NCBI GenBank assembly: GCA_014871385.1
Contig: CM026422.1
Span: forward strand, 11,904,718 to 11,968,717
DNA length: 64,000 nt
From: Ceratodon purpureus
Taxonomy: Eukaryota > Streptophyta > Bryopsida > Pseudoditrichales > Ditrichaceae
Direction of reading: 5' to 3'
Shown here one piece after another: positions 1 to 61,191 of this stretch. A model generated the notes under the pieces. It was not told where the DNA came from, made no database searches, and worked only from the letters and a program-made list of their open reading frames with translations. The position numbers and the translations under genes are program-made. Positions within the stretch are counted from its first letter, which is position 1. Each line of letters starts with the position of its first letter.

Positions 1-1893
1 GGGGAGTTTGGTGGAGCTGGGGATGGCGTGGTGGCAGGGCATTCTTACTGTGTTGATTGGGAATCTGGTGGTTCTGGTGCCCATGGTGCTGAGTGGGCAT
101 GCGGGTACCAAGTTCGGGGTTCCTTTCCCAGTGCTGGCGCGCGCTTCGTTTGGAATCCGGGGCGCGAACGTGCCGTCCCTGTTGCGTGCTCTCGTGGCCT
201 GTGGGTGGTTTGGGATCCAGACGTGGATTGGGGGGCAAGCTATTTATCAGTTGCTCAATACTCTCCTTAAGGGGAGCCTCACAGGTGGCGCCGTGCCATG
301 GTTGGGGATCAGCGTAGCGGAGTTTGGGTGTTTCATGGTCTTCTGGCTGCTGCAGGTACTTGCTGTTTGTTGGAGCGTGAGTTGAAATAGTACAATTATG
401 CTATTGATTATTTGTCTACCTTTTTTAGCAATCTGTAGAAAGCTGCGAGCTCGATGCCGTATCTTGAATTATGCGAGTTTTTACACGAATTGTCACATCC
501 TGGAAAAGATTGACTGGTCTGATGCTGGGCTTTGTACTTCATGGATTAGCTTGATTTAGTTTGTCGTTAATTATTTGACTTGTTTTGCAATGAGTTTAGT
601 GTCCCATTTGGGACTAATGTCAAGGGGCTTGCAGATTTCCGTGGATGTAGTAATCTGAATCGAAAATGACATCGGTTTCAGATGAAAGACGCCGCTGCTC
701 TTGTACATAGTTCTTATGCCGGGTGTGGCTCGTAGGTTGGTATTATTTGGAATGGTATTGAGAGCATACGGGAGCTGGAGAAATTGAGTGCCCCGATTCT
801 CATATTGCTGTCTGGAGCATTACTAGCATGGGCTTACATTCAAGCGGGAGGCTTTGGACCCATGTTGTCGCTCCCCTCACAATTCATCCCTGGAGGTCCC
901 AAAGAAGGGCAATTCTGGCAAACCTTCTTTCCAGCATTGACAGCCAATGTTGGCTTTTGGGCCACGCTCAGTTTGAACATCCCGGGTGAGGCTGCCTTGT
1001 GTCCTATGAATTCTTTTTCGCTATTTGTCCTTTGAATTCTGCTCAATAGCCGGCTTCCTTTTAATGACTGTAACCATGAAAATTGTTTGATTCGTGAATT
1101 TGTTGGCTATGGCTAGATATCGAGATATTGAGCACCGTGTTGTAAATGTGATTGGCCAGATTTTACTCGATACTCCAAGAGCCAGGCGGACCAGCTGACA
1201 GGCCAAGCAATAGGTTTACCTCTTTTCATGGCAGCTTTCACTTTCGTGGGCCTAGCAGTTACTTCAGCGACAGTGGTGATCTTTGGGCAGGCTATTTCGG
1301 ACCCAATACAGCTCTTGGCTCGAATTGATGGCGTCCTTCCCACCCTCTTATCTCTGGTAGGAGTTATTTTAGCAACTCTGACCACAAACATTGCAGCTAA
1401 TGTGGTGGCTCCAGCCAATGCTCTCGTGAACTTGAACCCCTCAATCTTTTCCTTCAGAACAGCTGGGCTCTTTACAGCTATCATCGGAATATTGCTTCAG
1501 CCATGGCGGTTGATTCAAACAAGCCAGGATTACATTTACACCTGGTTGATCGGATACTCTGCGTTATTGGGACCTGTCGGAGGGATTATGTTGGTCGATT
1601 ACTTCGGATTGCGAGGCCGGTCCCTCAATATTGATGATATTTTCTCTCGTGACAAAGGTGCTCTGTATTGGTACACGAACGGTTATAACATTGCAGCTTT
1701 AGCAGCCCTTTTTGCTGGCATAATCCCGAACATACCCGGGTTCCTGGTCGCTACTGGAGTGCTGAAGAACTGCCCACACATCTTCACTGTTATATATGAC
1801 AATGCCTGGTTTGTGGGTTTCTGTATAGCTGGATTAGTTTACTGGGCTCTATCGAAAAGACAGTTGCAAACCATGAGAGTGGCTGAAGTGTAA
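1..1893 (+). CDS. NCS1 nucleobase permease (PLUTO-like), 5' end cut by the window
   Basis: Secondary transporter for purines and uracil, with up to 12 membrane helices; plant members sit in the plastid envelope or plasma membrane. Three exons are visible: 1-355, 736-985 and 1160-1893, with GT-AG junctions and phases 0 and 1 that close. The protein shows the family motifs [25 protein letters not shown] and [12 protein letters not shown] in exon 1. Exon 2 carries the [18 protein letters not shown] block, and exon 3 carries [16 protein letters not shown] and VDYF. The N-terminal part and start codon lie upstream of base 1, so length cannot be compared. It ends at TAA 1891-1893. The nearest gene, DPH6, lies about 2.5 kb away on the other strand, so no functional link is implied. 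Family assignment is firm; substrate is inference. Confidence 0.93.
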
Positions 1894-19415: not shown

Positions 19416-21649
19416 TCATCTCTTCCAAATTCCTTCTCGCACAATCTTAGCCACTACCGCGACAACCGACTCGATGTACTCGCGATCATGCCCCAAACTA
19501 TTGGCGTGATACTCAATCCCGTTCACATCGCACAGCCGCTGCACTGCAGCGCGGCAGTCTCCCGGCACAATCTGGTGCTTGCCATCACCGAAGATCCTCG
19601 TCCATGCCTCCTCCCACAACCCTTGCCGCAGGTTCACTCTCACGTCGCTCACGGGCATCTTGTAGAAGAGAGGGAGGATTCTCACGTCGGGATTCTTGTC
19701 TTGGGACTTCATGAAGGAGACGAGTTCTGTCATGGGCCACCTGCGAGTGAAAAACTCCGGGGTGACGACGACGATGCCCACCTCCGTCTTGGCTAGCTGT
19801 TGGTTGATCTCGTCCGGGAATCGCTTGCCCTTGGGCAAACACCTTCGGTCCAAGAACACCTGGAAAAACCTCGACTCAATTTCGTTAAAATTGCACTGTC
19901 CCGCAAGAATGGCACTTTCAAAAACATTGATGATATTCGAAAGTATGATAGTGATGTTCGAAACTGAAGTTTTCTTTGGAAAAAAGTGCCATTTTAAACG
20001 GAACTGCTTGCCCATACCTTGATGAAGCGCTTGAGCTTCCAGTTTGCGGTCATCTTGTCGTAGAGCCAGTCTGGGAAATTCTTGCCTTCCTCATGCTCAC
20101 CACCTGCATGGGACAGGAAGATTCGTTGCGGCCGCCTGAACAACCTGAAAAGCTTGTATGCCATGGCTATGGCCAGCAATGCAGCCACACCCACAACTGT
20201 AATCCCCCCAGCCAGCTTCGCAGTGCTGCCACTACCACCCCCGGTTGATGATGGAGTTGGTCCAATGGTGCGGCCTCCAGGGCTTGAGGTTGGTGCTCTT
20301 GACGGCGAACTTCCACCAGGACCCAAGCCTGCAATCAAAGTGACAACAATCGTAACGAGTGGAATTCACATGTAGAAGATGGTGTCCGTAATAACATAGA
20401 ATCACTTCTTTTTTTCTATGAAGTTTTTTTCTTCAATCAATCATCACATTAATCCTTAAATGCCTAGCCATCTCAAGAATACACTGAAAAGGAAGCCCGA
20501 GGGGCTTTGATGGGCGTTTAAGGGTTAATTATCAATATTTCTCAAAATTTTATTCGTGTAGTAGGCCAACCTACGCTATTATTGAATTGGTAAAAATTTG
20601 ATGAAAATTGACCATTGTAATAATTGATTGATGTACACAAATTTATAGAAGAAAATTAGCGGTTCTAGAATGCCATTCCGGACACGTCATTACAAACACC
20701 ATTTTGGGCAGTATTTCTACTCTAGATCAACAATTTAACATCGAAGTTCTGATATGTGTTTTGCGAGTTTTCATCGCGGATTGATGGTGTCCATACCTTG
20801 TGTGTGCGTGCCAGCGCTAGTGCTGAAGCTCCAAGACACGATACTCTTGATCTCCGAATTCATATCAGTCGTCGATCCGCTGAACCCCACGAACATCTCC
20901 TCACTCATCACACCCTCCAAATCAACCGGAACTTCAATGATAGCACTCGCAGGCTTCGAAATATCTTGCAATGTAGACCCATTCGTCAAAAAAACCGCCA
21001 CAGTCTTCGTGACTCCGTCATACTCCACCCACGACGTGAACTCCTGGACGATGTTCGACAGATAATCAAACGCAAGATAGGAGCAGTCCTCAACCCCCTG
21101 CCCACACAAGTTATACGTAACCGAGGAGTTCATGCTGTTGACGTTCACACCGACGTGGTTGTTGCTAGGATCATTAAACTCCGGGTTCTTGAAAGTGTCG
21201 AACTCCACTGCGAAGAACTTGCTAGAAGTGGGATCTAATGCTCTCGGCATCAAACAGAGCTTCCCACCGGGGATGCCGAGGGTGTGGTTCTGGGGCAGGA
21301 GCACGAATGCGAACCCGGCGGTGTTGGTGCCCGTGATGGAGAATGTGAAGAAAGTGGAGAAGGAGGAGGAGTTGTTGTTGTTACCGAGGAGTTGAAGTGG
21401 CTTGGAGTAGAGTAATGAAGCGCAAGTGCCGGAAGTGGTGAGGCTGGCTTGGTTGCCTATGTTGAGATAGACTTGGGAGGTGCCGTAGACGAGGTCTTCG
21501 TTGAATTCGGAGTCGCCTCCGAGGGAGAGGTTGCTTGTGGCGTTGAATGGGGGGTAGGTGAAGGTGGTGCCTCCGCCATTGTTCTGAGCTTCGACGAGTA
21601 GCATATGGATTATGAGTACCAGAACGTGAAGTAGCTGCAACGTACCCAT
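19416..21649 (-). CDS. Lectin-TIR receptor: signal peptide, legume lectin, TM helix, TIR
   Basis: Predicted type I membrane protein of 535 residues. Exons 21649-20797, 20328-20018 and 19859-19416; both GT-AG junctions and the phases (1, 0) close. ATG 21649 is preferred because it begins a clean signal peptide, residues 1-21, cut before QNNGG. Residues about 25-284 match the legume-lectin ectodomain of plant L-type lectin receptors (FTYPPFN, TAGFAFVLLP, FFAVEFDTFKN, NHVGVNVNS, SWVEYDG, VGFSGSTTD, WSFST), with several N-glycosylation sites. A Pro/Ser/Gly stalk (285-320) leads to one helix at about 323-342 and a basic stop-transfer. Residues 353-535 resemble a TIR domain: RIFLSHAGG, FLDRRCLPKGKRF (BB-loop region), VGIVVVTPEFF, and WPMTEL with Glu433 at the position of the TIR NADase glutamate. 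No kinase domain is present. Confidence 0.85.
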
Positions 21650-23288
21650 CAATGCTTCCGAAGTTGCATGCACGTGCGTGCCTCAAACTGTCAACATGTT
21701 CATCTTAGTCTCTCTTGACATGCACTATCGTGTTTGTGCAATCAAGATTCAGACCTCGTTGCTTCTGCTTGCGATCGAGCTTCCGACCTACGAATGCAAC
21801 GTGAGGCCACACAATCAAAACATGGATACAAGCACACTGTTGTCATTCCCACAAGAAGAATAACTTAGAATACACTTTCATGAGAAATTTTTGTACTCTC
21901 GTAGTTGATACTTAGCATGTACCCGAGAATGTCAGCCTTAAAATTCGAAGATGATTAGCTCAAACCGGAATGTTAATCCATAGGACATCTACATGGCCGG
22001 GGACACAGGTGTCATTCGGGACCCGCCCATAGCCACTCCTCAAATATTCATACCCATACCCAGTACCCAGTATATTAAGGGCGACTCATTTGTGCGCATA
22101 AGTTAGACACAGCTATAAGTCACTGGGTAGCTCTCTCAACCTTAAATCATGATTGATGAATCTGCTTTGAAATGATGAAACCAAGAGGTAACTATATAAG
22201 CTTTCAATATGCACAGAATGATCTCCGAACGACCTGATAAGTGAACTCCACTCTATTAAAAACGAACTCAAGCGTACGAAAAAGGTGGTGTGATGACACT
22301 CCTTCTGACTTTGGAGACAGACAGGAGGGTTAGGAGGAGGAGGAAAACCATGAGCCGGTGCAATCCACTGTTCATTGTCGCGAAAGAACCACTTTCTCTT
22401 GTATGACTCCTCAATTTTGGGAGTGACTCAGAATAGGAATCAAAAGCGTCGAGTTTGCTACTGCTGTTATTCTCACATGCAGAGAAGTGAAAAAACTCGA
22501 GAATTAAGTATCACCGTACCCATACTCAAAATATACGCCAGTGAGAGTTGAAGGCATTGTTCGTATAATACTTACCTGGGTCCTGAACGAGATCGATCGA
22601 AGATGACCACATTCAACTTCCTCGGCATGAGTACAACATCGCTGTCGGTAACATGACGACTTCCTTGCTTAACCCTAAACCATAGCCGTTCTTGTGCTTC
22701 ATAAGCTCCCTGTTCAGATTACATAATGCCGGAAAACTATCATTCTAAACTTCCTAGAATATCTGCTTCGATCTCATCTTGGTATATACTCGATCAGCAA
22801 ACAGCAAACAGCTAACAGATTCAGTTTCTGTGCAACAAAGAAAATGCTCTCCAGGGCTACTAGCTATTAGCTCGGGGACCTTGTTCAGTTGAGTGCCGAC
22901 TCCCGAGTGCCCTGCTTGCAAGAGTGTCTGCAATGCATTATACTCTACCGATTGACAACGTTACTTGTGAATTGCTTGCTGCAGTGAATTCCCGACTGTG
23001 GAGCATGTGGCCCAGTGGCCCAGTGGAGAAGTGAGTCTGAATATAGTAGGGACGCCAAAGTTCGTGGCTTTACATAGTATGGTGCACTACCATTGCTACA
23101 GCTCGGTTTAATTTCCTTGGCCTTTCCGAGCTCTTGCGACTGCAGGTCCCTCAGGTGGGGGAGCACTCAGAACATATGGTAGACGGTATGAATGTGTCCA
23201 CACACTTTGGAATGAAGGTTACTTTCGGATGATTTTCATCTTCTAGAAGCTGCCTCATTGTACCTTCGAAGCCTACAGGCTACGACTA
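21650..23288. other. Upstream region of the lectin-TIR gene
   Basis: Expected to hold its promoter and 5' leader. No second gene was recognised; the 73-codon minus-strand ORF near 23.0 kb has no motif. A short direct repeat of CCCAGTACCCAGTAT character lies near 22055-22075. Confidence 0.4.
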
Positions 23289-28729: not shown

Positions 28730-33056
<4,327 letters not shown>

Positions 33057-34780
33057 TGCTGCAACAATTTTACCCAAACCCTTGTGCACAGTTTCACCCA
33101 AACCCTCGTGCACTGTAACCTTTAACGCAGGAGACCAGAAAAACAGAGGAGATATTGTTTTCAGCTGGCAGCTTTCGCGAGAAGAGCATCTGCATGCACA
33201 ATTTTCTGTGTTGCTTCTAAAGCTCTACCTACTCTAGATAGTGGACACGGACAAATAGGCGACATCACTTCATTATTTCATCGGAAGTGACGCTCCTGCA
33301 CCTCTACCAGCGTCACAACTTTCAGCTGAGAGCTTCAGTCTAGTCAACAAGGTCACCTCCAGAAAACCCAGTAGATATCTGCCACACTGAATATCACTTC
33401 CGACCTGCAATCAATTTTTCTTCGAGCTGCTCGAAGACTAATCTGCAACAATGTAGAGCCGACAAGTCAATAAAGCCGAATAGACCGTGAGGGTAGTAAA
33501 GTTGGATCTAACATCCTACCTCCAGAGGCTGCCATAAAAACAGGAACTGTTTAATATCGCTGTACGAATATCTACCTATCCCCGATAAATGATCCACTAA
33601 AGTATAAACCATGGGTACATATAATAAAAAACAAACAAAGGGCAAAACGCAGAAATAATTTTCAAGCTAACACCAACTCGACTGCTCGATTCCTTCGGCC
33701 ATGTTCAACCAGCAAGGTGCACATACAATGTCAAAAACTGAAACATTTTCGTCGTCCTAAAGCACCGGGCAAGGCTTGCTGATCTCTTAGCGCAGAAAGA
33801 AGTAACTCTTGAAAACAGCCATAGAAAGAAGGAAGGAGGAAAAAAATACCTAGCAAACTGGCTTGCAACAAAAACGCTGGCGAGAAACAGAAAACCTTAC
33901 CGATGTTCCCAGAGTTGAAGTAACGGCTAACAGGTTGTACAGTAACAAAGTTTGGAAACACCCGCAAACAGAGCAGGCTGCAACGTTCGACACGAAGAGC
34001 GTGACTAGAAACTAACGGCAAGGGACGACAGTCACTAGAGAGGGAGAGTAAGGGCGACAAGGTATCAAGCAGCGGAAAACGTACCACGAGCAAGCACAGA
34101 AACGCAGCGCAGGGTTCAACTAGGCGAGCAACAACTGTAGAAGCTACGACTAAAGTTAAACTTGGGGGCGATCGAGGCTCAAGAGCGAGCGACGGACGTC
34201 ACAGCGAGGGGGTGCGACTCCGCGAGCAGCGCGAGCTCACGATCCACCAGTCAGAGAGCGGGGATCTGGTCGGGAGACCGGGTGGTGCGATGGAGCTGCA
34301 AGCTACGCCGCGAGTGAGAATCGCCTGCGCCGCAGATCCAGCACCGCGACATGGCCGCCGAGAGGGACCCATCCACCAGGCATGACGCGTTATTGCGGAC
34401 ACCGAGGCTTGGCGCTTGCAAAACCGCGTGAAAATGATTCAAGCGCATTTATGCTCCACATGACGCTCGCAGCTGCAGATGAGTCCCCCATCTCGCACGA
34501 GCGCATCGACATACGTATCTCTGCTGGCAATGATTGAGCTCAACTCACCTACTCCGACGCGGTCCACAAATTCCAACTCCAGCTCCTCCACAGTTTGCAT
34601 CTTATCGACCCAGTTGATCTTCAGATTGCTAATCTAGCAGAAAACTCTCAGAGCACTGTCAGTGCGGAGCTTTAGAGACCGTCACTGTATGTCGACGACC
34701 ACGAGCTGCGCAGTGCAAGTGGTTGTGTTCCGGATTCGCTCAGGCTAACAGTGATTCTAGTTTGCGACTGATCATGTCTG
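33057..34780 (-). promoter_or_regulatory. Long 5' leader and promoter region of the Ca2+-ATPase gene
   Basis: About 1.7 kb between the ECA start and the next features, with GC-rich segments at 33.9-34.4 kb. The run just upstream of the ATG stays open for 19 codons without ATG. A 5' UTR intron is likely, given acceptor-like and donor-like sites around 33.1-33.5 kb, but it cannot be placed firmly. ORFs of 65-120 codons on the minus strand lack motifs. Confidence 0.4.
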
Positions 34781-35816: not shown

Positions 35817-37609
35817 CTAATCAGACTTGGAATTAGAAAACCGGCGAATTCGTACAAGCTTACCCTGCTGGAATAGAGGGGTGAAAGAGTGCTGATGCAC
35901 AAGAATTCCCAGGATACCCACAGTAGCTGCAAAGAACACGATGCTTGCTGTCCATAGCTGGAAAAACACATTCTGGCCTCTGAATTCTAGAAGGTACGCC
36001 CACCCTAGCCAATGCACTTGAGCAGCTGTCCAGATTCCCATACAAAGAACTCCCTTCTTCCAACTCAGTTTGCTGGCTGGAATGATGATAGGTAGCAGGC
36101 AGAAGAACCACACAAAATACTGTGCAGTGATCACCTGAAATGGACACCACACCAGAAATGAGATGGTGAAGAAAACCTCACCAAGATACTTGCATTGAAT
36201 CCAGAGTGCTTCTGAGAATTGCAAACCCTTGGAAATAAACTTCTACAAAGTCTCATATGGTAAGGGATGCAGAATATTAGACTGTCTTCCATCAACACCT
36301 CGCATTAATAACACGCACTCTTAACAGGATTTTAGGTCAACAAAGAGAAAGCTAAAACATGCTTAGCAGAAGGAAGGGCAAGATCGAGACTGCACCTTGT
36401 TGAAAGCGACGAAAGCCACCGTTTGAGCGAAAATGCAGAAAGGCAGATCCGTTGCGAAGTAAGTTGCAATCACTGATTGGACTGCAATTTGAGGTACGAA
36501 TGCTAAGAGCCGTTCCAATAATGTGAACCCCAGGGAATGATGAAGATACACATAATAGAAGTAAATGGAGAAGTTATGGCGGGGATCAGTGCGCGTGAGG
36601 TGGTACAATAATGCCTCTTGCAGAAACTCCATGCCATAGAAGTAATAACACAGCCCAGTGAGCGCAAAGAAGACGCCTCCAGAAACAAAGCCGAAAGTGA
36701 TTCTCTCGGGATTTAGCCATCGCATCAGCCCTTCCGAGTCTACCTTGTATCTTGCAATCCGAGCCGCCACTGAAGGATAATCCTCATCGAGAAACAGAAC
36801 GATCGGGAGCGCGTATATGATAGGATAGATGCGGAAATGCACCACCACTCCGTACCAAATCGCAGCCTGCACCAGCCGCCCTAACAAAAAAACCAACAAA
36901 TCCCAACTCAATGCCAAACCAACAAAACCATCCACACGATCTGCAACAAAATGAAAAAAAAACCTAATCTAACCCAACTGATCACACAGCCCAACATCCA
37001 AAAAACACAGATCAACGTACCAGTCATGAGGCATTTGAGGATCCAGAGAATAACAGCACACACCAACGCCTCACAGTTCCCCCGAGTCGCAACAGCGAAC
37101 GTGAACGGATTAAAAAACCACAATGCCGCGCACACGACTTGCACATTGCTCCCCACTCCCCGCAGCTTCAGCACTTGGCTTATCAAATGCCCCACAAGCA
37201 AATCTGCAAAACCATCCCTCCAACACTCTCAAAACCCAAATCTCAGCCCTCAAACCCACTCCCCTCACACAAAAAAAAAAACCAAAAAACAATCACATCA
37301 TCGTAACCCACCTGCAGCAGCGAAGAGGACCTTCCCCCAGCACCGATGCAGGACAATGTTGGGCACGAGCACAAGCGCCAACAACGGCGAGTAACGATAT
37401 GTATCCCGTTCAAACGGCGACTTCCCCTCCACGATCAACCTCGCAGCATCCGAAAACACGGTGTAGTCGATGTCGGTATACGCCACCTCCATGTGCGCAT
37501 CCTGCCATTCCCCATAGATGATCAACCCCACCCGCAGCAAAGCTGCAATCCAAACAACCGCCGGCCCAACGCCATCCCACGAACGCGTCATCCTGGATTG
37601 CGACACCAT
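35817..37609 (-). CDS. PIGM: GPI mannosyltransferase 1 (PIG-M)
   Basis: Adds the first alpha-1,4-mannose from dolichol-phosphate mannose to GlcN-acyl-PI in the ER lumen, during GPI-anchor synthesis. Exons 37609-37312, 37203-37021, 36880-36396 and 36134-35817; phases 1, 1, 0 close and give 427 residues, close to the 423 of human PIG-M. The start [13 protein letters not shown] is the first ATG; an acceptor-like site sits just before it, so a 5' UTR intron is possible. The DxD-type motif is TDIDYTVF, followed by [15 protein letters not shown] and RGNCEAL. The segment [16 protein letters not shown] is a hallmark of this family. The rest is hydrophobic, with about ten membrane helices. A 56-codon ORF starts 300 bp upstream on the other strand. 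Confidence 0.95.
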
Positions 37610-39025: not shown

Positions 39026-42000
39026 TCAGAGAATGTCCTCTATCATCAATGCTGGCCGATACATGGACGAAGATGCGTTGCGGGCAAGTACAAAAACTTC
39101 GGAGCTTGGGGCCTCCTCGTCGGGATCCAGCTGCTTCGCTCTCAGAACGCCGAGAGCAGCAAGTTCACAGATGCCTATGGCTGAAGAGGAAGTACTGCAC
39201 CAACAAGACAAGCCTTGAAGTTAGCCTGGCAGCTCAAAAATATGCTGAGGTATTCAATGTGTGTTCAATGATAACCCCTATGACATCACTTTAGCTACTG
39301 GATTCAACTTGTAAATATATTGTTTACAGCCTCACTCCTAAAGTTCGGTGACAAAAAACCTCGTTCTGTTGTAATTCAGTTATCTTAATTGAATGAAGAA
39401 CAAAGTTAAATAGTGTATGCAAAACGTTACCTTCCTCTGACAGAACCTGAAGTTACGATTCCGATTGGAACTCGCAAACTGTAGCTTTCAGACTTCGGCT
39501 CAGGCAGGTCTGTTGGATTAACTGTACTTTGAGGTTGGGTGGAGTCGTGGAGTGCTGACGTTGTTTTCTGTTCTCCTTTTGCCTTCTGTTTTCTCTTCTT
39601 TTTATTTAAAAATGATTGCTGGACCTGCTTAAAGCTTGGATCATCAAAACCTTGCCACCTTTGAGACCTAGCAAACACAAGAAACAATCACCACACGTTT
39701 TAAATCAAATATTCATAAGATTGAGCTGAATATGCACAAAAGCCGGTCGATCAAAAGCACACTTTCAATACAGGCCTACAGTACCGAGATCGTTTTGTTT
39801 GGTCCTATTTTATTAGTTAAATTAAATTCACCACCCATGATATGCCACGTTGAACCACTACGCCACTCTGAACGAACTAGGTAACATATTGTGTACAACA
39901 ATCATAAAACGAACTCTCATGAAGTGAATGGTGATAAAAGATACATACGAGCTGAAATAGGAGTCCACGTCACTAGGAAGTGGCAAATAGATGATGGCTC
40001 CTGAATCAAAGACTCCTTTACGAGGAGCATGAATCAGCACTTTCACAAGGCAACCTTTCTTCGCCAACTCCGTGCTGCCATGGCCAACTAGTTTCCAAGT
40101 TGGATGACGTGGCAAAATTGGCAAACTTGGAGAAATTGGACAGTCTGACGATTCAGTTGACCTCCTGAATCCTGTAAGCAATGGCAGGTGGTGAAGGTCA
40201 CAATCTCGTAAAACCGTTTGTAGAGTACTCCTTGTTCGCGCCACAAATATTGAGGACTTTTCATTGTCGCCACCTTCTGATGCCTTTCGTTCTCCAACTG
40301 CAGCCCGCACCTGCACACAAACAAAAATACCAGATTCATGAATAATATTTAGAACTACTCGAATAAGCCACTTGCAATAAGTATGCTTAATCGTTTCGCT
40401 AGACTTGAAATGAAGACAAAGTTGTGTCCTCTATTTACAGAGCAAGTTATCAATTTGTCAGTCACTTACAGACTCATCTTTCAAGGTCGAAGGATCCTCC
40501 ATATGTCCACTGACTTCCTGCAAGGTACGAGCACTCTGTGCAGAAGTAGATGCCTCCATATCAGCAGTTAAAGAACCACGCTCTTTATTCTGTCCCTCCG
40601 TATTACTTGCCAAGGGCTGGGAATCAGACACGCAGTCAGTCTGAGGAGGATGTTTTTCACGTGATCCGACAGTATGATCGGATGTGAGACCCTCATGTAG
40701 GACTTCCATCGGAGCAGGGATTGTGGGATCACTAGTGCAATCATCTCCTGCATCTCTTGGAATAATCTCAGCTGCTGTTAGATTGCACGGGGAGGGAGGG
40801 ACAAGGGCTTCATTAGAAGGCTTGCCAGAATCTCTCATAGAAACGTCAGCCTCTGTCACACCTGATATCCCTGCCCCAGATTCTGTCGTTAAGACATGAT
40901 GAACCGTGCTGTAATCGAACTGCGCAGAAGGTGCATCAGGACCAGTCGAAGAGGGACAAACAGTAGTGTCATTGGAAGTCTTTTCTTCGGAATTTTCACA
41001 AATTGCATCAAAAGATGTCTCTGCTCCAGACTCTACCCTTGAAACACCCTGAGAAATACTGCGATTCTCTGGATAAGTTGGAAAAGCTTCATTCTCAAAA
41101 TTCCAATCTGGCAGCCCGCTCTTCCATATGCCTCTTTTAGAAGGGGGTTTTCGACTGTATGCTTCTTGTTCTTCTGCAGCTTTCCTGGCCATGTGCTGGT
41201 CGTAAGAGGAACACTCTGGATAATCGTGCGGGAAGGACGAAAGCTGGGCCTGCGGCAACAATGGAAAAAAGTTACAGAAAGAAAGAAAATTACTGCAGTA
41301 CCTATTAGGCCCAAACTGTCATCCCTCTCTTGCCAACCTTAGTCCCTCCCCGTGCAGTTCATAAACACATTTATGGGACTGTTTCTCCCTCCCATAAACA
41401 TGAACCGACGCAAGATTTGAAGAAGACAGAAGCGCCAGTCATTTTCAATCGGAAGACCATTTCTGTATGAAAATTTCATCTAGACCTAATATAGATTAGT
41501 GTACGTGCATAAAGAATCACTGATATGAAATCTTAGAGTTTACCAAGGAATGAAACAAATTAGAGGCGATTAATAGACAACAAAACCAAACTAGTAAATC
41601 AAAGAAAACATTCCCCACATGAAGTCAACTACTTCTTTCTGACCAGATAGAAAACAGGAGTGACGATTGAGTTGCCACATGCAAGATTCATACATCTGTA
41701 TAGAGCCAATGTCGCTCCCGTAGTCCAATAACATGACCTCCTGCAAACACCAAAGGTACCCAAAAGGCCCGCACCCATGCTATTGGCAATATAAGCGAAA
41801 ACCTGCATGATGCCAACCATAAATCAATTAAACTCAATCTCAGATATAACAACAAAATGAAATGTGAAGAAAAGAAACATAAGAACGCCAAACTTCGACA
41901 ACAACATGAATCCACTAAAGATAAACCGTAGTTTTCTTGACTGCCTGACAGAAATCCTGGACAGTTTTTTTCTTCTTTAAACACCACCTATCTAGTCAAA

Positions 42001-53186: not shown

Positions 53187-54479
53187 CTACCAACCATCCA
53201 AAACCACATCAGTGAACTCTATTTAACATAAGTCCATCAAAGAGCAATTTGGCATCATGAGCTATTAGAAAGCTTCGACCACGACAGAGTAATTGATGAC
53301 CAAGAGGAAGAGTGGAGCTTGATTACAATTTTCCCAGATTATAAAGAATAGCAAAACCTTAATGGACGCAAAACCTGGGCTACAATTTGATCTAGGTTGC
53401 AGTGCCGCAATGGAGATGCTGTAAGTTAGTGTTGGAGAATGAGTCCGCTTTAGCATCATTACGGTCAGGTACGGCGACCGAGTATGAAGTGATTGACTGG
53501 GTTTTGGATTGGGATTTGGCTTCTGAAATGGAGCTGTTTGGTTTGGCATTTCTTTGGCAGTTGCACAGAAGAGGAAGGGGAAGGATCTTGGTAGTACTCA
53601 TGTTGCACCTCCAAGTCTATTTCGCACGGGGTTATGCTTAGGGTCAGTTTATTGCAAAAAATAATTCACTCTACATTCATTTTCTCTCTTCAGACAATTT
53701 CTATTTTTTATTTTTAGGATAATTTTTTGAGGAACCTGCTGTGGTACTACGGTACTCAGGCCGGACTGGGACTTCAATTTATCCTATGTGGCATCCTGTG
53801 TGGTACTATTTTGGCGCCAAATTTTTGGAATACTTTGATGCAATTGGAATAATGTTTCCTTTGGACCAAAGTTTCAACTTGGGTCCAACCTTGGGGCTAC
53901 ATTGGAGGTTGAAATAATTTTTAATCCAACCCACATTTTGGCTAGCCCCAGGTTGTGTATAAAGTGGGCCTTAATAGAGATGGATACAGTGTTTAAAATT
54001 GGAAGTTCCTCCTGTATAAAGCGGTGATAGAATTTGTTCATTTCTAATCTTAACCTCTAAATGCCCTTGGTGTTGTTGGAGCTAAAACTGCCAAAAGCAT
54101 CTATTGTTTTTGTACATAGATATTTATTATTAAAGGTACATAAACATCTATTGTAATAATAAATATCTATTGTTTTCTATATGTAAAATATAAATTGAAT
54201 ATTTAAAGAAAACAATGCTTTTACTTTTACACATAATTTAATATTAATATATTATCTATTTAAACTATATAATCTATATTTGATTAAAAGTAAAATAATT
54301 AAAAGATAGGAAAGCATATATATATGTATGTGTGTGAATGTTAATAATTTATATATTTGTAAATATATTATTGTATCAAATCTTACATTGTATCCAAAAT
54401 CTTCTTACAATTGTTTTTCTATATTTTATACTTATATTTTATTATATAGTGTTTGAAAACCATCAATCATTAATAAAAA
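53187..54479. promoter_or_regulatory. Upstream region of the deoxyhypusine synthase gene
   Basis: A perfect 12-bp palindrome TTTGGCGCCAAA (E2F-like) lies at about 53809-53820. A TATATAG motif lies about 35 bp before the ATG. Nested short inverted repeats (TTGGACCAAAG with CTTGGGTCCAA, and GGGGCTA with TAGCCCC) occupy 53860-53955. From 54.1 kb the DNA is extremely AT-rich. An 79-codon ORF at 53402-53641 (+) was not recognised. Confidence 0.4.
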
Positions 54480-55574
54480 ATGGATTCTAAGAATGAAGAC
54501 TTACTAGAGATTCGAGAAGTTTTGTTCAAAGCTTCAAGACCAATCAAAGATCTAAAGCCAGTGCAAGGATACGATTTTAACAATGGCATCAATTTAGAAG
54601 CCCTTTTGAATTCGTTGACTTCAACAGGTTTTCAAGCAACAAATTTAGGACGTGCCATTGAAGAAGTGAATTGCATGTTAAATTGGAGGCTAAATGATGG
54701 TTCTATTGATGAAATCTATGGCAATGAAGTGGATAGAGATTCTATAAATCATTCTCAAATCAAATGCAAAATATTTTTAGGATGCACATCCAACATTATA
54801 TCGTCCGGAGTACGGGAAAGTATTAGATTTCTTATTGAGCACAAACAAGTGGATGTTTTGGTAACCACAGCTGGGGGTGTAGAAGAAGATATCATTAAAT
54901 GTCTTGCAAACACATATATAGGCGATTTCTCTCTTAAAGGAGCTTCCCTTCGAAAACAAGGCTTGAATCGCATCGGTAACTTATTGTTACCGAATGAAAA
55001 TTACTGCAAGTTTGAAGATTGGCTCACACCTATTCTTGACAACCTTCTACTAGAGCAGCAACAGAATGGCACGTTGTGGACTCCTTCAAAAGTCATTGCT
55101 AGGCTTGGTAAAGAAATCAATCATCCGAAGTCAATATGCTATTGGGCTCAGAAAAATAACATACCTATATATTGCCCAGCTCTTACAGATGGATCATTTG
55201 GTGACATGCTCTACATGCACTTAGTCCACAACACAAATCAACTTGTAATTGATATTGGCCAAGATATAAAAGCCATGAATAGTGAAGCTATCAATGCCAA
55301 ACCTACGAAAACAGGGATGATAATTCTTGGTGGTGGTTTACCCAAACATCACATTTGCAATGCAAATCTTATGCGAAGAGGAGCAGATTTTGGTGTATAC
55401 ATTAACACAGCACAGGAGTATGATGGGAGTGACTCTGGAGCAAGCCCTGATGAAGCTGTTTCATGGGGGAAGATTCGGTCTGATGCAAATGTTGTAAAGG
55501 TTCATTGTGATGCTACAATTGCATTTCCTCTCCTTGTAGCCCAAACTTTTGCCCAAAGAATTACGAAATTATAA
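54480..55574 (+). CDS. DHS: Deoxyhypusine synthase, intronless copy
   Basis: Transfers the aminobutyl group of spermidine to a lysine of eIF5A, using NAD, in the cytosol. It is one unbroken frame of 364 residues, the normal length. Conserved blocks: [122 protein letters not shown] and DEAVSWGKI with the catalytic Lys at residue 331. Plant DHS genes normally have several introns, so this looks like a retrocopy that has stayed open. Codon use is AT-rich. The stretch [13 protein letters not shown] is unusual: plant DHS normally has HSFRNPGLIIDI, one residue shorter. No poly-A remnant is visible downstream. A changed function, such as the DHS-derived homospermidine synthases, cannot be excluded. 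Confidence 0.9.
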
Positions 55575-60047: not shown

Positions 60048-60405
60048 GCCCATTCCCAATCCACCGAAGCCGTTTCACGATTGTGTGAGCCTGCAATCTC
60101 AACGCTCAGGCTCAGGCCCGCTCTCACGCAACTCAGCCTACATCTCTCTGCATGTGCCACACCTCGGATCCCTCCATTCCTCCCTCCTCCCACACAGTGA
60201 CGCTCATCTCCTCTCCCTCACACCAACCTTGCCACCATCTCTACAAGCTCCCACAAGACTTCAAACCTCACATTCCTGCTCTGTCTCTCTCTCTAACGTC
60301 CGTCTCTAGATTGCCCTCATACGCTTCCACAGCCTTGTGGAGGTTATTTGCTATTGCTGTTGCCATTTTCCATTTTCTATTACTTTGATTTTGGTAATAG
60401 AACTT
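60048..60405 (+). promoter_or_regulatory. CT-rich leader / promoter of the Dof-like gene
   Basis: The region is C- and T-rich with long pyrimidine runs near 60280-60300 (CTGTCTCTCTCTCTAACG), a common feature of plant 5' leaders. No ATG lies in the gene's frame between 60337 and 60406. Confidence 0.4.
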
Positions 60406-61191
60406 ATGGCGGATCAAAAGGATCAAAAGGTTCATTGCGTGCATTGTGGATCTTCAAATTTGAAATTTAAATTCCTCAACAATAAGAAGCCCGATCAACA
60501 CCGTTACAAGTGCTTGAACTGCGAGGCCATTTTCACGTGGGAAGATCACAAAAGGCCCAAACCCAAGCACTACAAGAAGGTCCGCAACGAAGACCCCGTG
60601 GAGATTCAAGGCCAACGCACCCAGTGCAACAAGTGCTTTGCAGTGAACAACGCACGCTTCAAGTTTTATAACAACAAAAAAAAATATGGCGAAACCCAAC
60701 CTCGCTTCCGATGCCTGAGTTGTAAAAACTACTTCCAAATGCACTTGAAGGACGGAGTATTGGTGGCCATCAAGACGAGAAGTAAGAAATCACCCACTCT
60801 GAATGCAAATGAAGATGACCAGCTTGACATGTTTGACATATTGTTTCCCTCCGAGGGAGAGAACCCTCCCGACCCAAGCCACAGCCTCCAGTTGCAGGAT
60901 GCAGCTCAGGCTGCGTATGAATGCAGTCTGGACAATTCTTCCATGCACGATGAAGACCATCATGAAGGCCCTCACCATGCATCTCCCGATCAGAATCCAT
61001 ACTACGATTGGGAGAATGACTTCGGAGAGCTCATCGATAATCCCAACTACGGACATGCTAACGATCATTCCTCCGACTCGTCTCCTTCAGCCCTTTCCAC
61101 CGACGGATTGATCGGCATGATGGACGGTGTTTCCGAAGCACTTGCTGCAGCCGACATGATCTATCTTTCAGACTTCGAGAAGCCGCTTTAA
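60406..61191 (+). CDS. Protein with two tandem Dof-like zinc fingers
   Basis: Intronless, 261 residues, starting MADQKDQKVHCVHCG. The first finger is C11-x2-C14-x21-C36-x2-C39, exactly the Dof spacing. The second is C74-x2-C77-x25-C103-x2-C106. Both keep Dof-like features: the FKFLNNKK and FKFYNNKK segments correspond to the Dof FCYYNN, and QPRFRC to QPRYFC. The classical W after the last Cys pair is displaced or replaced (FTWEDH, NYF). The linker is Lys/Arg-rich, suitable for DNA contact or nuclear import. The C-terminal half is acidic with Asp/His/Ser clusters (DEDHHEGPHH, SSDSSPSALSTDG) and a hydrophobic tail, suggesting an activation domain. Likely a nuclear DNA-binding protein; Dof kinship rests on spacing and these short motifs. 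Another C2C2 family is possible. Confidence 0.65.
   Translation: MADQKDQKVHCVHCGSSNLKFKFLNNKKPDQHRYKCLNCEAIFTWEDHKRPKPKHYKKVRNEDPVEIQGQRTQCNKCFAVNNARFKFYNNKKKYGETQPRFRCLSCKNYFQMHLKDGVLVAIKTRSKKSPTLNANEDDQLDMFDILFPSEGENPPDPSHSLQLQDAAQAAYECSLDNSSMHDEDHHEGPHHASPDQNPYYDWENDFGELIDNPNYGHANDHSSDSSPSALSTDGLIGMMDGVSEALAAADMIYLSDFEKPL

Follow-up and report, generated by a model that had tools for sequence, protein, structure and literature searches.

Gene structure and domain order at the locus

We analysed a stretch of 64,000 nucleotides from the moss Ceratodon purpureus (assembly GCA_014871385.1, contig CM026422.1, positions 11,904,718 to 11,968,717; hereafter the window), which carries on its minus strand a gene predicted to join a legume-lectin ectodomain to a cytoplasmic TIR domain across one transmembrane (TM) helix. 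Joining positions 21649-20797, 20328-20018 and 19859-19416 on that strand yields an open reading frame (ORF) of 535 amino acids (aa) with a terminal stop and splice phases 1 and 0, so that the single gene with closing phases put forward in the original prediction, which had been made from the sequence without database searches, holds in coordinates and phases (Table 1). A simple consensus score ranks each of the four splice sites as the top GT or AG within the stretch scanned around it, and the GC content of the exons is 0.52, 0.57 and 0.56 versus 0.35 and 0.37 in the introns. The point of intron 2 is crossed without a break (FIKV/FLDRR) in the homologues P0064 and P0065, whose sequences may be RNA- or DNA-derived. 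Another homologue, P0063, is 95% identical to the window TIR across 80% of its length; against window positions 19416-20015 it displays near-identical sequence running through the same intron 2, with 52 identical intron-derived residues and six substitutions in 147 exon residues, both small numbers. If intron 1 were retained, the lectin domain would be followed by GMDTINPR and a stop codon, and the product would be a soluble lectin isoform that is secreted.

Pfam assigns aa 29-280 to Lectin_legB (E 1.2e-50) and aa 354-456 to TIR_2 (E 1.9e-10), with the TIR family also matching (E 2e-8), all above their curated cut-offs, and Lectin_L-type_dom (E 2e-7) remaining below its own. No Pfam match to a kinase or NB-ARC was found in the protein, only TIR families following the TM helix, and no leucine-rich repeat (LRR) ectodomain, the ectodomain being a legume lectin. 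Residues 353-535, whose assignment to a non-TIR family would have spoken against the proposal, match TIR families only, both in this search and among solved structures. Hydropathy reveals a hydrophobic N-terminal stretch starting at aa 1 (read from hydropathy alone as a signal peptide), the TM helix, and a marginal third stretch at aa 100-118 (mean 1.37) within the lectin domain. Basic residues flank the helix on its TIR side, and the protein is predicted to be a type I membrane protein. An AlphaFold2 model of the full-length homologue P0002 places a helix at residues 314-343, with a mean predicted local distance difference test score of 86-88 over 321-340 and 52-58 at the ends; lectin and TM regions of this model are good, whereas the TIR is poor (block means of at most 56) and was left unused.

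A moss family of lectin-TIR proteins

The same arrangement recurs elsewhere in the genome, where at least four lectin-TM-TIR genes are present: the window gene, L020, L021 and L065. As L020 and L065 are uninterrupted ORFs, the lectin-TIR pairing is independent of splice prediction. Intron 1 of the window gene and the inferred intron of L021 are both of phase 1 and both lie between lectin and TM helix. When the genome was searched with the L021 TIR and 150 of 272 candidates were scored, the four lectin-TIR loci ranked as the top four (E 2.5e-137, 1.7e-55, 2.6e-33 and 5.3e-31), ahead of the next TIR at 6.8e-20. Lectin_legB has 84 matches in the genome, some being exons of one gene. TIR domains were sought around 30 lectin loci (1.5-kb flanks), in 20 wider stretches (7 of them around loci already included) and around L065, and the remaining lectin matches were compared partially and by eye with the TIR lists (150 of 285 and 150 of 272 candidates scored), which makes four genes a lower bound. 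Searching the 64-kb window by tblastn (E up to 0.01) with the window protein and P0001-P0070 gave no match outside the gene.

A database search with the full-length protein found 62 proteins (7995 candidates scored), among which P0001 (589 aa), P0002 (587 aa) and P0003 (573 aa), from sources labelled ena and jgi, share the domain set in the order N-terminal hydrophobic sequence, lectin, TM helix and TIR. Their lectins are nearest to moss lectins. Judged by their Pfam matches, the other proteins are lectin receptor kinases (LecRKs) or further lectin proteins, and the 62 include no Ceratodon protein named at NCBI that has both a lectin and a TIR domain. P0064 and P0065 likewise have a hydrophobic helix before the TIR. 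Recurrence at three other genome loci and in P0001-P0003 confirms that the lectin-TM-TIR order, as originally proposed for this gene, is beyond chance, and the window protein belongs to the lectin-TIR family both by this order and by the position of its TIR within the receptor-TIR clade described below.

The TIR domain retains the catalytic-position glutamate

Glu433 of the WPMTEL motif aligns with the Glu of W-x-x-x-E-L in AT1G72930, L6, L7 and Roq1, the catalytic position in alpha-C, in agreement with the NADase position originally assigned to it. Nine of the ten database homologues keep this Glu, and the exception, P0068, is without that region; L020, L021 and L065 keep it too. Among solved structures, the single window sequence retrieves TIR domains only, with a plant TIR ranking first, and the top nine matches of a further search are all plant TIRs. 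A model of homologue P0064 (64% identical) is closest to plant TIRs, indicating a plant-type fold for this homologue. Three points count against the receptor model set out below: bacterial TIR chains occupy ranks 2-4 when the single window sequence is the query, its motif reads WPM versus WC in solved plant TIRs, and the model was made of P0064 and not of the window TIR itself.

A bacterial origin of the TIR was tried and rejected: 64 pattern matches among the contigs scanned included none confirmed as a relative by tblastn of the first query, a search that distant bacterial TIRs could escape. Of five homologues compared with NCBIfam, two had no match and three matched bacterial TIR families, anti-phage ones among them, with scores well under the cut-off; the highest, for P0064, was 34.7 of 600 bits.

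The genome holds a large stock of TIR domains, with at least 150 matches over the cut-off (of 285 candidates). Ten TIRs from the weaker-scoring part (L051-L058, L063, L064) all contain WPM-x-EL, and nine of these ten lie in ORFs of 212-261 aa. L051 (C10:6138600-6141900) is an open frame of 641 codons on the minus strand; its TIR occupies part of the final third (aa 446-612), and Pfam finds no further domain in it.

Lectin and TIR halves appear to have different histories

In a tree of 26 TIRs (P0070 was left out of the TIR trees), those of the receptors form one clade (100/99) apart from the 15 others, and the TIRs of P0001-P0003 are placed beside those of L020 and L021 and apart from that of the window protein. 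The lectins of the window protein and P0001-P0003 instead fall in a moss clade shared with the LecRKs P0005/L017 and P0007/L018 (98/89 in a 62-row tree, 100/96 in a 61-row tree), and those of L020 and L021 in a different, LecRK-rich clade (100/99). Because the TIR tree unites P0001-P0003 with L020 and L021 and the lectin trees unite them with the window protein, the histories of the two halves appear to differ. The L065 lectin pairs with L041 (100/100), which by a motif check has neither kinase nor TIR in the same ORF. The lectins of C. purpureus P0005, P0007 and P0027 lie at zero distance from L017, L018 and L022. P0062 was dropped from the 62-row tree; the 72-row tree (LG+G4) was built without ORFs under 180 aa and weak matches and with three short rows dropped; the 61-row tree (LG+G4) resulted from removal of 12 long-branched or duplicate rows and addition of L065.

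A single origin of all fusions was considered and rejected: the TIRs form one clade, but the lectin trees need, on starred branches, at least two (62 rows), one (28 rows), three (72 rows) and four (61 rows) changes of the lectin-TIR label. The similarity between P0001 and the LecRK P0007 spans TM helix and juxtamembrane region and ends at ..LW, where the kinase part starts (..LLWPREFSF); its segment score of 107 was reached by none of 2000 shuffles (mean 23.9, maximum 50; one pair tested). A remnant of this kind is expected if a TIR replaced the kinase, and these comparisons suggest that the TIRs probably replaced, or were exchanged with, LecRK kinases. Other features of the trees pull the opposite way. 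The sisterhood of the L020 and L021 lectins is starred in the 72-row tree (97/86) and unstarred in the 61-row tree (81/83), a single clade of the window and P0001-P0003 lectins is not rejected in the 28-row tree (approximately unbiased test, p-AU 0.133), and long-branch warnings attach to all four lectin trees.

The lectin domain and its ligand

E149, D151, N155, D160 and H165 of the window lectin are kept at positions aligned to the Ca/Mn site (E8, D10, N14, D19 and H24 of ConA). The Asp of the ADG loop contacts the sugar in carbohydrate-binding legume lectins, and at this position the window lectin carries Ala111. Also counting against the receptor model set out below, this Asp is absent not only from the window copy but also from its 12 nearest lectins (Ala in 12/12), and paralogue L065 is without two of the metal-site residues (AVKFGSQRN versus AVEFDTFKN). 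Among 49 other lectins the position is Asp in 14 and Ala in one, and L020 and L021 show GDG at the loop, with the Asp kept. The L065 ectodomain may bind something else. Ligands reported for L-type LecRKs include extracellular ATP, NAD+ and NADP+ (PMC10311507). The description of the window ectodomain as a glycan sensor, made in the original prediction, is not supported as worded and is unproven.

Neighbourhood of the gene

The Pfam-named neighbours in the window are ordinary (Table 1), and Rfam gave no match at gathering thresholds. A short ORF at 22268-22510 on the minus strand, some 0.7 kb upstream of the lectin-TIR gene, has a signal-peptide-like start (MNSGLHRLMVFLLLLTLLSVSKVRR) and no Pfam match. 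Outside the window, some 22 kb to the left of its first base, L062 (C2:11882199-11882630) encodes on the gene's strand a TIR whose motif, WCLKEL, resembles the WCLxEL present in solved plant TIRs.

Table 1. Features of the lectin-TIR gene, its neighbours in the window, and the related loci elsewhere in the genome
Feature	Position	Strand	Basis or remark
Exon 1: lectin domain after ATG and signal-peptide-like start	20797..21649	-	aa 1-284 and base 1 of codon 285
Lectin_legB domain, aa 29-280	20810..21565	-	Pfam 1.2e-50; top PDB match GSI-B4 lectin 1gnz, 4.7e-17
Intron 1, 468 bp	20329..20796	-	phase 1, GTATGG..TTGCAG
Exon 2: Pro/Ser/Gly stalk, TM helix, TIR start	20018..20328	-	up to aa 388
TM helix, about aa 321-345	20147..20221	-	hydropathy stretch about 318-349, then basic KLFRLFRRPQR
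Intron 2, 158 bp	19860..20017	-	phase 0
Exon 3: remainder of TIR domain and stop	19416..19859	-	
Glu433 codon, in WPMTEL (aa 429-434)	19725..19727	-	aligned with Glu of W-x-x-x-E-L in plant TIRs
Purine/cytosine permease	1132-1893		Pfam
Cation-transporting ATPase	28730-33224		Pfam
PIG-M mannosyltransferase	36363-36968		Pfam
POP1-like protein	39858-41318		Pfam (POPLD; POP1_C under cut-off)
Deoxyhypusine synthase	54477-55574		Pfam
Protein with two partial Dof-type zinc-ribbon stretches	60310-61191		Pfam (54.7 bits)
L020, single uninterrupted 517-aa ORF	C4:6.10 Mb		Lectin_legB 6.7e-45, TIR 1.1e-10
L021, lectin ORF and TIR ORF, 553 aa	C7:2.79 Mb		inferred 95-bp GT-AG intron, phase 1
L065, open frame of 602 codons (595 aa counted from the first Met)	C4:12.95 Mb		our own lectin and TIR profiles, not Pfam

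A candidate mechanism and its alternatives

Gene structure, domain order, family membership, the plant-type TIR fold of a homologue and the conserved Glu are established by computation. Building on them, we consider it reasonably likely that the window protein belongs to a small family of moss lectin-TIR receptors that cross the plasma membrane once, in which a TIR with clustering-activated NADase output stands in place of the LecRK kinase. The legume-lectin domain would face the cell wall and bind a ligand outside the cell that may not be a sugar; clustering driven by this ligand would gather the cytoplasmic TIRs, and the gathered TIRs would oligomerise into a putative NADase acting through Glu433. 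Its output could be a second messenger, or cell death or defence, in a plant lineage reported to be without EDS1. In evolutionary terms, the TIR of one moss clade would have been set in place of a LecRK kinase, with repeated reassortment of lectin and cytoplasmic halves. Of 20 TIR domains from non-flowering plants, 11 are reported to elicit moderate-to-strong cell death in Nicotiana benthamiana, with TIR enzymatic activity required (PMC11218826). EDS1 is reported absent in seed-free plants by the same source and by PMC10834447, and EDS1/PAD4 are reported in some ferns (PMC12512272). Given the reported absence in seed-free plants (PMC11218826), the output of a moss receptor TIR would probably have to run without this protein.

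Alternatively, and less probably, the protein is a real receptor whose TIR merely recruits cytosolic TIR proteins, as in the animal TLR-MyD88 pair, with no NADase activity of its own. The Toll-like type I layout would suit such a scaffold, and the many other TIR matches in the genome (150 of 285 and 150 of 272 candidates scored) offer possible partners; retention of the Glu in every motif-containing homologue (9/9 from databases, and L020, L021 and L065) and a fold closest to plant TIRs speak against it. We regard it as improbable that the protein, as a lectin receptor devoid of a kinase, acts as a decoy or negative regulator, using its TIR tail to block signalling by LecRKs or TIR-NLRs and producing no signal itself: ectodomains in the same clades as LecRKs and the missing sugar-site Asp of the window copy would be compatible with it, whereas the TIR motif and its Glu have been retained over deep divergence and at least four copies have been retained in one genome. 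Very improbable, too, are two transcription units never joined in mRNA, one for a secreted lectin and the other for a TIR-only protein whose start would be Met340, within the TM helix: exon 1 read-through would yield a lectin with a stop eight residues on, but no Met lies between the last in-frame stop before exon 2 and the TM helix (the first being Met340), the splice sites are locally top-scoring, the whole chain lies in one ORF in L020 and L065 and is continuous in P0001-P0003, and P0064 and P0065 also have a hydrophobic helix ahead of their TIR.

Relation to known systems and significance

The lectin-TIR protein is a new receptor architecture built from known domains and present in several copies in one moss. 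In agreement with the original statement that no plant receptor of this form had been described, we found no description of a legume-lectin-TM-TIR receptor in the open-access PMC literature; supplementary tables, preprints and subscription journals lie outside this scope, and an unremarked listing is possible. L-type LecRKs such as Ceratodon KC19_6G017300 (P0005) and KC19_1G043300 (P0007) resemble it in their N-terminal hydrophobic start, Lectin_legB ectodomain and single TM helix, share its lectin clade and, in the case of P0001, match in the juxtamembrane region as well, but have a cytoplasmic kinase where the window protein has a TIR. It fits the definition of L-lectin receptor-like proteins (TM helix, L-lectin, no kinase; PMC10834447), differing by its TIR; in the main text of that paper "TIR" appears at two places, alongside TIR-NLRs and in the title of a reference. 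With plant TIR proteins, for which PMC9806590, a paper whose main text is without the word "lectin", names the architectures TNL, TN, TIR-only and TNP, it shares the TIR fold and catalytic-position Glu; unlike them, it has no NB-ARC or repeat domain, its TIR is C-terminal to an ectodomain and TM helix, and this TIR falls in a clade separate from the 15 others compared. Arabidopsis PP2-A5 also combines a lectin-type and a TIR domain in one chain, but with the TIR N-terminal and a C-terminal PP2 domain, which is not a legume lectin, and no membrane helix mentioned in its description (PMC12355970). A predicted soybean GNA-SLG-PAN-TIR-NB-ARC-LRR protein (PMC6272470) is among the nearest described, and the survey of lectin evolution PMC6362431 does not use "TIR" as a word in its main text.

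The window protein also has, as originally proposed, a layout similar to that of animal Toll-like receptors (TLRs): type I, with a single TM helix and a cytoplasmic C-terminal TIR, as read from sequence. TLRs combine these elements with an extracellular LRR sensor and belong to the animal lineage, whereas the ectodomain here is a legume lectin, and the likeness would be one of convergence. In current descriptions, immunity at the plant cell surface relies on kinases, whereas plant TIRs signal in the cytosol, through NLRs and TIR-only proteins. A receptor with a plant TIR placed directly behind an extracellular lectin would connect the two within one protein. More tentatively, and with slightly less than even confidence, we suggest a separate class of plant surface receptors in which TIR chemistry (ligand, clustering and an NAD(P)+-derived messenger) replaces kinase phosphorylation, operates without EDS1, and arose by repeated LecRK kinase-to-TIR exchange in mosses, convergent with TLRs. 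If true, such a class would unite pattern recognition and TIR signalling in one molecule. As the four lectin-TIR genes lie in a sequenced moss, it should be feasible to knock them out and to transfer them into Nicotiana, and these genes allow one to ask directly what the products of moss TIRs target in plants reported to be without EDS1.
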